Part shown: one piece after another, positions 32,924 through 41,118 of the stretch
Numbering within the stretch: position 1 is the first letter of the stretch
Layout: every line of letters begins with the position of its first letter
Position numbers and translations under genes: made by a program
Notes under the pieces: generated by a model
Seen by the model: only the letters and a program-made list of their open reading frames with translations
Told to the model about the DNA's origin: nothing
The model's database searches: none
NCBI GenBank assembly: GCA_029210625.1
Contig: JARGFU010000001.1
Coordinates: forward strand, 451,806-515,805
Reading direction: 5' to 3'
Length of the DNA: 64,000 nucleotides
Origin: Deltaproteobacteria bacterium
GTDB lineage: Bacteria; Myxococcota; Myxococcia; SLRQ01

Positions 32924-34160
32924 GGCGGACGCACGGTCCGAATCTCGGCCCCACGCCATGGTCCCAATGCCCCTGCACCGGGGCTCCTGCCCCGATCCCT
33001 ACGACGGCACGGGTTCTGCTGATGGCCGCTGGCATGGGAAAGCCACGCCAAGTCCTTCCGGGCAAGACCTACATGGTCTCCCGCAGATGCCTGCTGCGGA
33101 TGTTCCTGCTGCGGCCATCCAAGAAGGTGAACGAGGTCTTCCTCTACTGCCTGGCAGCTGCGGCAGAGCGCTTTGGGGTCGCGGTTCACTCCTTCTGCGT
33201 GATGTCGAATCACTATCACCTCGTGATCACTGACCAGCGAGGAGAGCTGCCTCTGTTCATGCACCTCCTCAACCAGCTGACCTCGCGCGCCATCAACTCC
33301 CTCCTCGGGAGGTTCGAGTCGTTCTGGGCCCAGGGCACGTACAGCGCCGTGGAGCTCCCCGATGATGATGCGATCATCGACAAGATCGCCTACACCCTGG
33401 CGAACCCCGTCTCCGCCGGCCTGGTGCAGACGGGCAGGTCGTGGCCTGGCCTACGAAACCTGCCCGAAGATGTCGGTTCGCGAGTCTTGGTCGTCCAGCG
33501 CCCTCTTCAGTTCTTCCGGAAGGACGGAGCTCTCCCGGCCGAGATCGCGCTCGAGATCGCTCTGCCTCCTTTTGAGGATCTGTCCGGAGAGGATGCTCGT
33601 TCCTGCATCGCTGCCGCTGTCGAGGCCCAAGAAGATGCGGCGCGTTCCCGGATCGCGGCAGAGGGTAGGAAGTTCCTGGGAAGACGCGCCATTCGCGACC
33701 AGAGTTCCTTCGACAGGCCCGACTCCAGGGAGTCGCGCTTTCGAATCAACCCCCGCACTGCAGGCCGCGACAAGTGGAAGCGAATCGAGACGCTGTCGCG
33801 ACTCCGCTCCTTCCTGGAAGCCTACCGGGAGGCCAAGGCCGCCTATCTTTCGGGGCATACCGGCGCGGTCTTTCCCGCTGGCACCTGGCTGATGCGAGTC
33901 AGGTACGGCGTCGCGTGTGCCGATACCGGATAGGTTCCGCCCCGCTGATTTCAGATCCGATTGGTATCCCATCCGGGTGGCGGAACGGGGTCCCGTACGT
34001 TCTGTGACCGGTGGAGACCCGCGACACCGCGTCGCACTGGCCGAAAACGGATCGACTCCGCTCCTTCTCCCGCTGAAGAGAGAGGAATCGGGCTCGCATA
34101 GACGCCTGGTACGGCAGAGCCCACGGCCCGGCAGGCTCCTTCCCGAAACTATCCTGGTTC
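32909..34160. mobile_element. Candidate RAYT transposon bounded by inverted 15-base sequences
   Basis: The outer limits are the inverted copies of AAACTATCCTGGTTC at 32909-32923 and 34146-34160. Between them lie the transposase gene and noncoding flanks of about 98 and 212 bases. In the right flank TTCCGCC (33935-33941) and GGCGGAA (33979-33985) form a weak inverted repeat. The unit sits between the menC and hemN 3' ends. Whether it moves as one unit, or the 15-mers are stable targets, is not shown. Confidence 0.5.
33022..33933 (+). CDS. REP-associated tyrosine transposase (Y1/IS200-like)
   Basis: This protein of about 303 residues is a Y1-type HUH transposase. The HUH metal site is SFCVMSNHYHLVITD, preceded by LPGKTYMVSRRCLLRMFLL, and ALAN-type blocks follow (IIDKIAYTLANPVSAGLV). 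Such enzymes nick single-stranded DNA through a tyrosine and act on REP hairpins. The long open frame upstream is shadow of menC; ATG at 33022 (or 33034) starts the domain. Codon use is less GC-biased than in the men genes. Inverted 15-mers flank it, at 32909-32923 and 34146-34160. The protein has a long C-terminal part rich in Arg that is not recognised. Confidence 0.85.
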   Translation: MAAGMGKPRQVLPGKTYMVSRRCLLRMFLLRPSKKVNEVFLYCLAAAAERFGVAVHSFCVMSNHYHLVITDQRGELPLFMHLLNQLTSRAINSLLGRFESFWAQGTYSAVELPDDDAIIDKIAYTLANPVSAGLVQTGRSWPGLRNLPEDVGSRVLVVQRPLQFFRKDGALPAEIALEIALPPFEDLSGEDARSCIAAAVEAQEDAARSRIAAEGRKFLGRRAIRDQSSFDRPDSRESRFRINPRTAGRDKWKRIETLSRLRSFLEAYREAKAAYLSGHTGAVFPAGTWLMRVRYGVACADTG

Positions 34161-34178
34161 CGGTCTAGACGGTCCGGG
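34146..34178 (+). repeat. REP-like element, right flank of transposase
   Basis: AAACTATCCTGGTTC at 34146-34160 is followed by CCTGG (34153-34157), TT, CCG, loop GTCTAGA, CGG, T, CCGGG (34174-34178). This gives an eight-pair imperfect stem with one G-T pair. The right arm covers the last codons and stop of hemN on the other strand, so part of the hairpin is coding. Confidence 0.62.
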
Positions 34179-35529
34179 AGAAGTTGCCGGGGCGGGTCTT
34201 TAGGTAGCCGTCGTAGAGCATCGCCACGTTGCGGACGAAGAGGCGGCCGAGCTCGGTGACCTTGATGCCCGCCTCGTCGCGCTCGATGAGCTGCTGCTCC
34301 TGCACGGCGTCGAGGCCGGGGAGCACGTCGGCAAAATAGGTGTCATGATCGACGTCGAACTTCTCCTTCAGGCGGCCGAAGTCCAGCCGGAAGGTGCACA
34401 TCAGATCGTGGATCGCGCTGCGGCGCACCTCGTCCTCGAAGGTGCGGGTCCAGCCGCGACTCAGAGGCAGGTGGCCGGAGTCGATGGCCGCGTCGTAGTC
34501 CTTGATCTTGTGGTGGTTCTGCGCGAACGCGCCGCCGAAGTCGGAGATGGCGGTGGCGCCCAGGCCCAGGATCTCCATCCGCGGGCCGGGCACGTAGCCC
34601 TGGAAGTTCCGCTGGAGGGTGCCGTCCTTGAAGGAGGTCGCCAGGGCGTCCCCCTCCTTGGCGTAGTGGTCCATCCCCACCTGCACGTAGCCGTTGGCGG
34701 TGAGGGTCGCCACGCAGTCGGCCAGCATCGAGGCCTTCTCCATCGCGGCCGGCAGCGCGCCGGTGTCGAGCTTGGTCTGGTGCGGCTTCACCTGGGGCAC
34801 GTAGGCGAAGGAGAAGATCGCCAGCCGGTCGGGGCCCAGCTCGACGATCTTCTTCACCGTGCGGTGGAAGGAGTCGAGGGTCTGGGTCGGCAGGCCGTAG
34901 ACCAGGTCCATGTTGATCGAGCCGAAGCCCGCCTTGCGGGCGGCCTTGAAGGCGCGCTCGGTCTGCTCGACGGTCTGCTCCCGGCCGATGGCGACCTGCA
35001 CCGAGGGCTCGACGTCCTGCAGCCCGAAGGAGGCGCGGCGGAAGCCCAGCGCGTGGAGCCACTCGAGCTGCCCCTCCTCGAAGTGCCGGGGGTCGACCTC
35101 GATGGCGAGCTCGGCGTCGGGGAGGAAGTTGAAGCGCTCCTTGAGGCCCCCCATGAGGGCCTCCATCTGATCCTTCTCGAGGTAGTTCGGCGTGCCGCCG
35201 CCGAGGTGGAGGTGCCCGACGGGGCGGTCCCCCACCAGCGCCACCGCCATCTCGGCCTCCTTGAAGACGCGCTCGAGGTAGGGGTCGCCGGCGAGCCGGA
35301 TGTTCTTCCGGACCACCACGTTGCAGGCGCAGTAGGTGCAGAGCTGCTCGCAGAAGGGCAGGTGGACGTAGAGCGAGAAGGGCTCACGGCTCTTGCCCGC
35401 CTCGGTCAGCGCGCTCTTCCAGGCCTCCTCGGTGAAGACCTCGCTGAAGAGGTTGGCCGTGGGGTAGGAGGTGTAGCGTGGACCTGGGCGGTCCAGGCGG
35501 GTGATCAGCTCTGGCGTCAACTCGACCAT
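34165..35529 (-). CDS. hemN: Oxygen-independent coproporphyrinogen III dehydrogenase
   Basis: This 454-residue enzyme has the radical SAM motif Cys60-x3-Cys64-x2-Cys67 with the following Cys69 (PFCEQLCTYCAC), typical of HemN. Others are HLHLGGGTPNYLEKDQ, ASFGLQDVEPSVQVAIGR, SINMDLVYGLPTQT and VPGPRMEILGLGATAISDF. It decarboxylates coproporphyrinogen III to protoporphyrinogen IX for heme under low oxygen. A GGAG ribosome site precedes the ATG. Upstream on the same strand are a 27-codon ORF and a sigma-54-type promoter, and a globin-coupled kinase lies beyond, which would suit control by oxygen. Confidence 0.94.
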   Translation of the reverse strand: MVELTPELITRLDRPGPRYTSYPTANLFSEVFTEEAWKSALTEAGKSREPFSLYVHLPFCEQLCTYCACNVVVRKNIRLAGDPYLERVFKEAEMAVALVGDRPVGHLHLGGGTPNYLEKDQMEALMGGLKERFNFLPDAELAIEVDPRHFEEGQLEWLHALGFRRASFGLQDVEPSVQVAIGREQTVEQTERAFKAARKAGFGSINMDLVYGLPTQTLDSFHRTVKKIVELGPDRLAIFSFAYVPQVKPHQTKLDTGALPAAMEKASMLADCVATLTANGYVQVGMDHYAKEGDALATSFKDGTLQRNFQGYVPGPRMEILGLGATAISDFGGAFAQNHHKIKDYDAAIDSGHLPLSRGWTRTFEDEVRRSAIHDLMCTFRLDFGRLKEKFDVDHDTYFADVLPGLDAVQEQQLIERDEAGIKVTELGRLFVRNVAMLYDGYLKTRPGNFSRTV

Positions 35530-35667: not shown

Positions 35668-35751
35668 TCAGGAGAGCAGGAGGGGCACGCAGACCGCTGC
35701 CGCCATGCCGGCCAGCACCGTCAGCGCCATCACCGTGTAGAGCCGATCCAT
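35668..35751 (-). CDS. Candidate 27-residue single-span membrane peptide
   Basis: ATG at 35751 reads MDRLYTVMALTVLAGMAAAV then CVPLLLS and stops at 35668. This is 27 residues forming one membrane span with a basic N-terminal residue. An AGAGG sequence lies about seven bases ahead of the ATG. It is too short for routine ORF calling, but sits between a -24/-12 promoter and hemN in the same direction, in an otherwise empty 440-base gap. Small hydrophobic peptides like this often stabilise or regulate membrane complexes; no specific function can be claimed. It could also be a leader peptide for hemN. Confidence 0.5.
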   Translation of the reverse strand: MDRLYTVMALTVLAGMAAAVCVPLLLS

Positions 35752-35784
35752 CGTCAAACCTCTCGAGCTGCGTTTCCGGGTCGT

Positions 35785-35809
35785 CCGGGTCCCCGAATAT
35801 CGGACCCGG
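35785..35809 (-). promoter_or_regulatory. Hairpin in the 5' leader of the 27-codon ORF
   Basis: CCGGGTCC (35785-35792) pairs with GGACCCGG (35802-35809) around a nine-base loop CCGAATATC. Flanking GTTTC and GAAAC add a second, alternative pairing (GTTTC 35772-35776 and GAAAC 35810-35814). It lies right at or just after the transcription start predicted from the -24/-12 element, so it would be the first structure of the leader. No T-tract follows. Confidence 0.5.
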
Positions 35810-35818
35810 GAAACCAAA

Positions 35819-35833
35819 GCAACGACCATGCCC
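35819..35833 (-). promoter_or_regulatory. Sigma-54-type -24/-12 promoter
   Basis: On the minus strand GGGCATGGTCGTTGC runs from 35833 to 35819, giving GG and GC elements separated by exactly ten bases, as in the consensus TGGCAC-N5-TTGC. The first T and the C before the final G of the -24 block differ. A start near 35807 would transcribe the 27-codon ORF and probably hemN. The nearby NtrC-type regulator encoded upstream is the obvious activator. Confidence 0.6.
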
Positions 35834-35969
35834 TGTCCCGACGATTCGCTAAGCGGCCGTATTCACGCCTCCACGAGGCGAACGCCCGTCCCTGGGCCGT
35901 GAATCAGCGCAGAAATTACCGGGGGATCCCCACCCCGATCGGCAAGGCCTGCCTGATGGGGGATGATCC

Positions 35970-37430
<1,461 letters not shown>

Positions 37431-37464
37431 GGTGCTCCCCTGGAAGGTTAAGCGCAAGAATTGC

Positions 37465-37480
37465 TGCATCCTTTGTGCCG
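37465..37480 (-). promoter_or_regulatory. Sigma-54-type -24/-12 promoter upstream of the NtrC-type regulator
   Basis: On the minus strand CGGCACAAAGGATGCA runs from 37480 to 37465. GGCAC and TGC match the consensus, and the GG and GC elements are ten bases apart. The predicted start is near 37454, 24 bases ahead of the ATG at 37430. This would make the regulator autoregulated. Confidence 0.55.
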
Positions 37481-37526: not shown

Positions 37527-37690
37527 CGATTTTCAGAACCGTCCCACGTGATCACCGGGTAAACACTCACGCAGGAATTTCCAGATACCCGGGGGGGCAG
37601 GCATCGGTTGCGTGACCTGGGGGATCTCACGCCCTTTTGGCCCGGAAGAGGTGTGGGCGAGGCGGGACGGCGGGAGTAAGGTCCGTCCTC

Positions 37691-38869
37691 GTGACCGACT
37701 CCGCCTTCCTGACCCGCCTGATGGCCCAGACCGGCTTCACCCAGGAGGACGCTGACCACCTCTCGAGGCTGCTGCCGGCGGTGGAGCCCCGGGCCCGGGA
37801 GCTGGCCGACCGCTTCTACGGCCGGATCGTGGCCGACCAGGAGGCCTTCGCCACCCTCGGGGGCAGCGAGGCCCGGGCCGAGCGCCTCAAGGTGACCATG
37901 GTCCGGTGGATCGTCTCCGGCCTCTCGGGCCCCCACGACCTCTCCTGGCTCGAGGCGCGGGCCCGGATCGGCCGGGTCCACGTGCAGATCGAGCTTCCCC
38001 AGCACCTGATGGTCACGGCCATGAACGGGCTGCGCCAGGATCTGCGGGAGATCCTGGAGGAGACCCTCGCCGGGGCCGGCGAGGCGCGGCTCGCCACCTC
38101 CCGGGCCCTCGACCGCCTCCTCGACCTCGAGCTGGCGATCATGCTCGACACCTACCGCGAGGACAGCCTCTCCCGGCTGGCCCGGCACGAGCGCCTGGCG
38201 ACCATCGGCGAGCTCGCCGCCAGCATCGCCCACGACCTGCGCAACCCCCTGGGGGTGATCGAGTCCTCCCTCTTCCTCCTCCGGCGCAAGGTCAGCGAGG
38301 AGGACGGGGCCAGCCGGCACCTGCAGAAGATCCACCGGCAGGTCGAGCGCTGCAACCGCATCATCACCGACCTCCTCGACCTGGTGCGCGGCCGCGAGCC
38401 CACCCTGGGCCCGGTGGAGCTCGAGGCCTTCTTCGCGGGGGTCCTCGAGCAGTCCGAGCTGCCGGAGAACCTCGAGGTGAAGCTGGAGATCGAGCCCGGC
38501 GCGAGCCTCGTCTGCGACGAGAGCCTGGCGACCCAGGCCCTCTGCAACCTGGTGGCGAACGCCCGCCAGGCCATCGGCCGGGCGAAGGGGACCATCGTCC
38601 TCTCGGCCCACGCCGGGGAGGAGGGCTGTGAGCTGCGGGTCAGCGACGACGGCCCCGGCTTCCCTCCCGAGCTGCTGACCCAGGCCTTCGAGCCCCTGGT
38701 CACCGGCCGCAGCAGCGGCGTCGGCCTCGGCCTGGCCATCGCCCGCGGGATCGTCGAGCGCCACGGGGGGCACGCCCGGGCCCTCAACGGGGAGGAAGGC
38801 GGCGCGAGCGTCCGCCTCTTCTTCCCCCGGGAGGGGGCCGCCGCGGGCCAGGAAGGGGGCCGGCCGTGA
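37691..38869 (+). CDS. Globin-coupled histidine kinase
   Basis: Residues about 10-160 form a protoglobin-like sensor: GFTQEDADHLSRLLPAVEP, ELADRFYGRIVADQEAF and the block RIGRVHVQIELP, whose His97 matches the heme-binding proximal His. The kinase half has H-box His181 in GELAASIAHDLRNPLGVI, an N-box LCNLVANARQAIGRA and ATP lid VSDDGPGFPPELL and VGLGLAIARGIVERHGG. It probably senses oxygen or another gas through heme and phosphorylates response regulators. The start is GTG at 37691; an upstream TTG at 37637 would add 18 residues. Its stop overlaps the double-receiver gene by four bases. Confidence 0.88.
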   Translation: MTDSAFLTRLMAQTGFTQEDADHLSRLLPAVEPRARELADRFYGRIVADQEAFATLGGSEARAERLKVTMVRWIVSGLSGPHDLSWLEARARIGRVHVQIELPQHLMVTAMNGLRQDLREILEETLAGAGEARLATSRALDRLLDLELAIMLDTYREDSLSRLARHERLATIGELAASIAHDLRNPLGVIESSLFLLRRKVSEEDGASRHLQKIHRQVERCNRIITDLLDLVRGREPTLGPVELEAFFAGVLEQSELPENLEVKLEIEPGASLVCDESLATQALCNLVANARQAIGRAKGTIVLSAHAGEEGCELRVSDDGPGFPPELLTQAFEPLVTGRSSGVGLGLAIARGIVERHGGHARALNGEEGGASVRLFFPREGAAAGQEGGRP

Positions 38870-39606
38870 TCGTCGGTGCCCGGGTCCTCATCGTGGACGA
38901 CAACAAGGACCTCGCCGAGAACCTGGCCGAGATCCTGGGCGATCTGGGCTACCGGGCCGAGGTGGCCCTCGACGGCTCCCGGGCCCTGGCCCGGCTGGCC
39001 GAGGACTGCTTCTCCCTGGTGATCACCGACCTGAAGATGCCCGGCCTCGACGGGGTACAGGTGCTCGAGCGGGTACGCGCCCACTGGCCGGAGCTGCCGG
39101 TGATCCTGATGACCGCCTACGCCCAGGAGGACCTCCTGGCCCGGGCGGCCGAGGGCGAGGCCGCCGCGAACGCGATCTTCTCCAAGCCCCTGGACCTCGA
39201 TGACCTGCTGGAGTCGGTGGCCCAGCTCTGCCCCCCCGACCGCCCGGTGCTGCTGGTGGAGGACGACGACGACCTGCGGGAGACCCTGGTCGAGGCCCTC
39301 TCCCGCACCTGCCCGGTGGAGATCTTCAGCTGCGCCGACGGGGCCGAGGCCCGGCGGACCAGCGAGGGCCGGGCCTTCTCGGTGGCCCTCCTCGACCTGC
39401 GCCTGCCCGACGAGGACGGCCTCGACCTGGGCACCTGGCTCCTCGCGCAGCAGGGCGAGGGGCAGCTGCAGGTGGTCTACATCACCGGCCACCGGGGGGA
39501 CTTCGACGCGGCGCTCCAGGAGGTGCTCGCCTCGCCGGCGGTCCACCTCCTGGAGAAGCCCTTCCCGCCCGAGCGGCTGCTGGCGGTGATCGAGGAGATC
39601 CTCTAG
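38866..39606 (+). CDS. Stand-alone tandem double-receiver protein
   Basis: This 246-residue protein is two receiver domains without an output domain. The first has VLIVDDNKDLAENLAEIL, Asp55 in ITDLKMPGLDG, LMTAYAQE and FSKPLDL. The second has VLLVEDDDDLRETLVEAL, its Asp in LLDLRLPDEDG, YITGHRGD and LEKPFPP. Both phospho-acceptor sites are intact, so it can act as a phosphate branch or sink between kinases. GTG at 38866 overlaps the kinase stop by four bases, and the receiver-PAS-kinase gene starts directly at its stop. Confidence 0.92.
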   Translation: MIVGARVLIVDDNKDLAENLAEILGDLGYRAEVALDGSRALARLAEDCFSLVITDLKMPGLDGVQVLERVRAHWPELPVILMTAYAQEDLLARAAEGEAAANAIFSKPLDLDDLLESVAQLCPPDRPVLLVEDDDDLRETLVEALSRTCPVEIFSCADGAEARRTSEGRAFSVALLDLRLPDEDGLDLGTWLLAQQGEGQLQVVYITGHRGDFDAALQEVLASPAVHLLEKPFPPERLLAVIEEIL

Positions 39607-41118
39607 ATGGCGCTCTCGGAATCTCGCATCCTGATGATCGACGACCACATCGATCTCGCCGAGGACCTCATGGAGATCCTCGAGGGGGTCGGCGCCACCG
39701 TCGCCCACGCCCGCACCGGGGCCGAGGCCCTCGAGCTGGCGAGGACCCCCTTCGACGTCGCGCTCCTCGACGTGAAGCTCCCGGACGCGACCGGCCTGGA
39801 GCTCCTGCCCAAGCTGCGGGCGGCCGGCGACGGCCTGGCCGAGATCCTCCTGGTCACCGGGCACGCCTCCATCGAGGACGCCATCGAGGCGGTGAAGGCC
39901 GGGGCCTACGCCTACGTCCTCAAGCCCTTCAACCCCGACGAGCTGCTGGTCGACGTCGAGCGCGCCCTGCGGCAGGTCCGCAGCACCCGCGAGGCCGAGA
40001 CCCTCCGCCAGACCCTCGGCGAGCGCGAGGCCCGCCTGCGGATCCTGGTCAAGACGGTGCAGGCCCTGCTCATCGAGATGGATCCCGAGGGGGTGATCCT
40101 CCAGGCGAACCCCGCCGCCTGCCACGCGGTGGGGATCACCAGCGGCGATCTCCTCGGCCGCAACTGGATCGAGGAGTTCATCCCCGAGAAGGAGTGGCGC
40201 GAGGCCATCGGCCTCCTGCGGCGGGTCGCCGGCGAGGGCGCCGAGATCCACCGCGAGAGCCGCATCGTGAGCTCCGCCGGCGGGCGGACCCGCGAGCGCT
40301 GGGTCAGCTGGACCCTCTCCCGCCTCCACGAGGAGGACGCCGAGCCCGGTCAGGGCGTGCGGATCTACGCCTCCGGCATCGAGACCACCGAGGTGAAGCG
40401 CCTGGAGCGGCGCTCGCGGGTCACCGAGAAGCTCGCCGCGGTGGGCACCCTGGCGGCCGGCCTGGCCCACGAGATCCGCAACCCGCTGAACGCCGCGACC
40501 CTGCAGCTGCGCCTGCTCGAGCGAGGGCTGCGGCGCCTGGACGAGGCCGCCGAGCCCCTCACCGAGCCCCTGGGGCTGGTGCAGGACGAGCTGGGCCGCC
40601 TCTCCCGGCTGCTCCACGAGTTCCTCACCTTCGCCCGGCCCGGCGAGCTGCAGACGATGAGGGTCGAGCTGGGCTCGGTGGCCACCAAGGTCGTCGGCCT
40701 GGAGGGCCCGGCCGCCGAGGAGGCCGGGGTCACGGTGAACCTCCAGCTGCCGAAGGGGCCGCTCGAGATCGAGGCCGATCGGGAGAAGGTCTACCAGATC
40801 CTCTTCAACCTGGTGCACAACGCCGTCGAGGCGATGCGCGGCGAGGGCGGGCAGGTCGAGGTGATCCTCGAGGAGGCCGAGGGAGGCGCGCGGCTGCGGG
40901 TGAACGACAACGGCCCGGGCATCCCGGAAGAGAACCTGAGCCGGATCTTCGAGCCCTTCTTCTCCACCAAGCCGGGCGGCACCGGCCTGGGCATGGCCAT
41001 CGTCCACAGCCTGGTGAGCGTCCACGGCGGGACCATCGAGGTCCACAGCCAGGGCGAGGGCACCCAGGTCGAGGTCTTCCTCCCCGAGACACCGCCGACG
41101 GTCGCCGGCGCCAACTAG
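39607..41118 (+). CDS. Receiver-PAS-histidine kinase
   Basis: This 503-residue protein has an N-terminal receiver (ILMIDDHIDLAEDLMEIL, Asp55 in LLDVKLPDATG, YVLKPFNPDELL), a central PAS region (LIEMDPEGVILQANPAACHA), and an H-box with His288 in AAGLAHEIRNPLNAAT. The ATP-binding part has FNLVHNAVEAM, NDNGPGIPEENLSRIFEPF and TGLGMAIVHSLVSVHGG. It has no membrane span, so it is cytoplasmic. It is the third gene of a signalling operon, starting immediately after the double receiver stop, and it may be phosphorylated through the first kinase, making a phosphorelay with the NtrC-type regulator. Confidence 0.93.
   Translation: MALSESRILMIDDHIDLAEDLMEILEGVGATVAHARTGAEALELARTPFDVALLDVKLPDATGLELLPKLRAAGDGLAEILLVTGHASIEDAIEAVKAGAYAYVLKPFNPDELLVDVERALRQVRSTREAETLRQTLGEREARLRILVKTVQALLIEMDPEGVILQANPAACHAVGITSGDLLGRNWIEEFIPEKEWREAIGLLRRVAGEGAEIHRESRIVSSAGGRTRERWVSWTLSRLHEEDAEPGQGVRIYASGIETTEVKRLERRSRVTEKLAAVGTLAAGLAHEIRNPLNAATLQLRLLERGLRRLDEAAEPLTEPLGLVQDELGRLSRLLHEFLTFARPGELQTMRVELGSVATKVVGLEGPAAEEAGVTVNLQLPKGPLEIEADREKVYQILFNLVHNAVEAMRGEGGQVEVILEEAEGGARLRVNDNGPGIPEENLSRIFEPFFSTKPGGTGLGMAIVHSLVSVHGGTIEVHSQGEGTQVEVFLPETPPTVAGAN

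Follow-up and report, generated by a model that had tools for sequence, protein, structure and literature searches.

A putative sigma-54 promoter and a 27-codon open reading frame ahead of hemN, beside genes of an NmpRSTU-type oxygen-sensing system

The window analyzed here, a stretch of 64,000 nucleotides, carries hemN, which encodes an oxygen-independent coproporphyrinogen III oxidase, and directly upstream of it on the same strand a homologue of nmpR (Table 1). Divergent from nmpR, homologues of nmpU, nmpT, and nmpS form one cluster (37637 to 41118) whose genes overlap or abut. On the other side of hemN, an IS200-like (Y1) transposase frame (33034 to 33930, plus strand) separates it from a gene that we take to be a putative menC. 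NmpR, NmpS, NmpT, and NmpU make up a signaling system of Myxococcus xanthus (PMC6211767) and, judged by domain make-up, the four genes here are an NmpRSTU oxygen-sensing system. The first-pass annotation of this DNA, whose elements and promoter reading hold up and whose sRNA proposal does not, overlooked the adjoining system, which is the main point of the locus.

The nmpR homologue is 52 to 55% identical to nmpR-like genes that adjoin nmpU/nmpS in relatives, and its true start may be internal to the called frame. In the nmpU homologue, His115 and Tyr61 align without gaps with His99 and Tyr45 of the globin-coupled kinase AfGcHK (PDB 5ohe), which are its proximal and distal heme residues, respectively (PMC8697598). 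As with AfGcHK from Anaeromyxobacter sp. Fw109-5, a globin-coupled kinase bearing these residues precedes a two-receiver protein. The target genes in Anaeromyxobacter are stated to be unknown (PMC11841059), whereas the present system adjoins a hemN promoter.

Table 1. Features of the hemN-nmp region, in window coordinates
Feature	Positions	Strand	Basis or remark
hemN, oxygen-independent coproporphyrinogen III oxidase	34165-35529 (ATG 35529)	minus	TIGR00538, 519.6 bits (cut-off 325)
27-codon ORF MDRLYTVMALTVLAGMAAAVCVPLLLS, one hydrophobic span	35668-35751 (ATG 35751)	minus	AGAGG ribosome site at 35759-35763
Perfect 8-bp inverted repeat CCGGGTCC-N9-GGACCCGG	35785-35809		at predicted transcription start
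Putative sigma-54 (-24/-12) promoter GGGCATGGTCGTTGCT	35833-35818	minus	GG-N10-GC with flanking consensus; score 14.7 of 16.4 (simple weighted consensus)
Perfect 5-N5-5 dyad CGCCT-CGTGG-AGGCG	35866-35880	minus	-47 from sigma-54 site; candidate activator site
Terminator-like hairpin 3' of nmpR	35911-35932 (stem 35932-35920)	minus	would set nmpR apart from hemN transcript
AGGCA-GGCCT-TGCCG	35940-35954	minus	fits invariant NmpR core GCA-N5-TGC; candidate distal NmpR site, -121
nmpR homologue, NtrC-like response regulator	35970-37469	minus	receiver, sigma-54 activator ATPase, Fis-type HTH
nmpU homologue, globin-coupled histidine kinase	37637-38869	plus	Protoglobin+HisKA+HATPase; PDB 5ohe match
nmpT homologue, two receiver domains	38866-39606	plus	domain make-up
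nmpS homologue, receiver-PAS-histidine kinase	39607-41118	plus	domain make-up

Only two sites in the window, that at hemN included, score at least 14 as sigma-54 promoters, a count not above the reversed control. The stricter motif GGCAYG-N4-TTGCW, however, has 16 matches genome-wide, the hemN site among them, whereas the reversed pattern has 1; most of the 16 sit 1 to 110 nt ahead of plausible start codons. The genome also contains what a sigma-54 promoter requires, namely, rpoN (single copy) and an enhancer-binding activator (NtrC-like, with a sigma-54 activator ATPase). Given the excess over the reversed control, the placement of most matches just before gene starts, and the presence of rpoN, the -24/-12 site is very probably a genuine sigma-54 promoter, from whose position a transcription start is predicted at about 35807 on the minus strand. 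The earlier description of a -24/-12 promoter with GG and GC ten bases apart was correct, its start near 35807 included, and the same reading is favored by sigma-54-like sites at the hemN genes of relatives.

In a set of 30 loci of the class with a hemN match, one of them that of the window, sigma-54-like sites at hemN reach 13.2 or higher in 16, and 13 of the 30 have a GCA-N5-TGC core 44 to 58 nt before the best-scoring sigma-54-like site. The relatives' site is mostly TGGCACG-N4-TTGGA, about 60 to 65 nt ahead of the hemN match. By this comparison, a sigma-54/NmpR-type hemN promoter is widespread in the class. Further, hemN adjoins nmpR in G049, and in G028 some 3 kb separate it from nmpU; these genomes represent two further families. 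A scan of named genomes found no closer relatives by hemN. As a separate observation, a -12 element of TTGGA, not TTGCA/T, is conserved at hemN in 12 genomes (loci L015, L017, L018, L020-L022, L024-L026, and L028-L030).

In M. xanthus, NmpR binds pairs of GCGCA-N5-TGCGC sites before sigma-54 sites, the promoters bound include that of hemN (mxan_5532), and hypoxia induction of a reporter for another NmpR target, mxan_4236, is NmpR dependent (PMC11841059). The present locus shares with that system the four proteins by domain make-up, the NtrC-like output regulator, and a sigma-54 promoter before hemN, which in M. xanthus is a demonstrated NmpR target (PMC6211767, PMC11841059). It differs from that system in having nmpR immediately ahead of hemN, with nmpU on the other side, in having no recognizable NmpR double site, and in the small ORF carried by its long hemN leader. 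No double site of the M. xanthus type (GCGCA-N5-TGCGC) is present upstream of the hemN promoter, where a single weak GCA-N5-TGC core is found instead (-121), and perfect NmpR consensus sites are not enriched genome-wide (9 versus 8 in the control). The perfect dyad at -47 occupies the usual place of the promoter-proximal NmpR site of relatives (-44 to -48) with a sequence unlike the NmpR consensus; CGCCT-N5-AGGCG, with 110 occurrences per strand of the genome, is too common to be informative as an NmpR motif and was rejected.

Since paired NmpR sites are missing at this promoter, we infer direct control by NmpR from other evidence: the adjoining NmpRSTU genes, the binding of NmpR at hemN in M. 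xanthus, the sigma-54/NmpR sites of relatives, and the proximity of hemN to nmp genes. On these grounds, the -24/-12 site is most likely an NmpR/sigma-54 hypoxia promoter of hemN. The missing pair would also fit a real sigma-54 promoter served by an NtrC-type activator other than the adjacent NmpR, as would the existence of further NtrC-type activators in the genome (for example, at L086:1160-2503) and the case of G032, in which hemN has NmpR-like sites yet the best NmpU match covers the kinase domain only. We regard such an activator as improbable, given that nmpR is the adjacent gene, that NmpR targets hemN in M. xanthus, and that 3 of the window's 26 GCA-N5-TGC cores fall within the two intergenic stretches on either side of nmpR, against 0.16 expected per 400 bp.

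Under control by NmpR, low oxygen would be sensed by the globin of NmpU and relayed through NmpS to NmpR, as in M. xanthus, and the neighboring NmpR would activate the hemN promoter, raising oxygen-independent heme synthesis in hypoxia. With its regulator gene directly upstream of hemN, the arrangement carries the NmpRSTU-hemN link, shown in M. xanthus, over to a further family of the class. No PF01218 match to hemF was found at an E value of 0.001 or below in this 98% complete genome, and hemN may be its only coproporphyrinogen oxidase of this type. In this the genome differs from M. xanthus, and hemN may therefore have to be made in the presence of oxygen as well, which counts against a purely hypoxic promoter.

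The 8-bp repeat of Table 1 is the eight-pair hairpin of the arrangement for which an sRNA-like leader had been proposed. The repeat is present and may stabilize the 5' end of the message; by our own estimate, an intergenic region this long would hold about 0.2 such repeats. The stability of the hairpin, however, equals that of shuffled sequence, with z scores of 0.0 for the 40 nt that begin at 35807 and 0.38 for the whole leader. RNA starting at 35807 would keep six of the eight pairs, with two pairs preceding the predicted start. Rfam gave no match in the leader, and a simple scan found no terminator-like site between the small ORF and hemN. A perfect repeat right at the start site could still suggest a regulatory RNA element or sRNA, a reading that ordinary folding, the two lost pairs, and the Rfam result make highly improbable, and the sRNA or structured leader was rejected.

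The long leader, 278 nt here versus 34 to 51 nt to the hemN match in most site-bearing relatives (173 nt in L019), contains the 27-codon ORF, which sets the locus apart from those of relatives. The first-pass annotation gave the order of AGAGG, ORF with hydrophobic span, and hemN correctly, and the ORF itself goes beyond chance expectation. Not one of 3,000 shuffled leaders contained an ATG ORF of 20 or more codons with a comparable hydrophobic span, and among the window's 247 ATG ORFs of 20 to 60 codons, this ORF alone combines a ribosome site, a hydrophobic span, and the GC3/GC2 codon signature; both figures are descriptive rather than proof, the ORF criteria having been set after the ORF was seen. 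Its GC content at codon positions 1, 2, and 3 (0.70, 0.44, and 0.93) resembles that of hemN (0.66, 0.40, and 0.97) and nmpR (0.69, 0.44, and 0.96). As no other of the 247 shows ribosome site, hydrophobic span, and codon composition of this kind together, the ORF is probably translated. A chance, untranslated frame within a long leader, to which the lack of any homologue in 146 other genomes of the class (E value of 0.1 or below) would correspond, is unlikely in view of this joint signature and of a hydrophobic span that the shuffles did not reach. The homologue search included one other genome of the same family, which is 85% complete and has no close match to the present hemN.

The ORF is a plausible gene for a small membrane protein; the regulatory role suggested for it at first was a guess. 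In size, single hydrophobic span, ribosome site, and position before a heme gene, it resembles small bacterial membrane proteins (single span, fewer than 50 residues), and the peptide has no sequence relation to any named family: Pfam and NCBIfam gave nothing above cut-off, with DUF1072 below it at an E value of 0.043. The ORF may instead act mainly as a leader cistron, its translation adjusting hemN output or the stability of the message, while the peptide itself has no function. A good ribosome site, the lack of homologues in the genomes searched, and a leader so much longer than those of relatives would suit such a cistron. The strongly hydrophobic span is not what chance would give, and the ORF stop lies 138 nt ahead of the hemN start, too far for direct coupling; on balance, we consider this possible, though somewhat unlikely. 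Returning to a functional peptide, the ORF stands out clearly as a candidate for an unannotated membrane peptide induced in hypoxia. More specifically, its product could be a new lineage-specific protein of this kind, made with HemN under oxygen-sensing control, whose action would be on heme synthesis, on a terminal oxidase, or on the sensor system itself, a proposal that we hold as doubtful.

The terminator-like hairpin that nmpR has of its own, the lack of a terminator-like site between the ORF and hemN, and the lack of a sigma-70-like site or second promoter in the same stretch (simple scan) point to the ORF and hemN as a putative operon. The sigma-54 promoter would thus give rise to a two-gene message, with the membrane peptide encoded first and hemN second, and the peptide would probably be made and inserted in the membrane. 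Taken as a whole, an NmpR-controlled hypoxic sigma-54 promoter driving an ORF-hemN message, with a peptide that is probably translated and membrane inserted, is a reasonably likely reading of the locus.

Sigma-54-like sites were also noted at two further loci of this genome. The first, L086 (G000:C10:146000-162000), is a heme-copper oxidase cluster in which a strong sigma-54-like site (score 15.4) directly precedes a redox gene; upstream, the cluster has a kinase and an NtrC-type regulator of its own. A CGTGAATNCGG-like motif common to the hemN promoter and a cytochrome oxidase operon promoter (at -35 and -33) is a lead only, since it was found post hoc and shared 15-mers are not above shuffles. 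At the second locus, L088 (G000:C1:449030, just before the window), a strong sigma-54-like site accompanies a multi-heme cytochrome gene, and the region upstream of that gene and the hemN promoter region both contain CGCTGATTC[AG]CGG.
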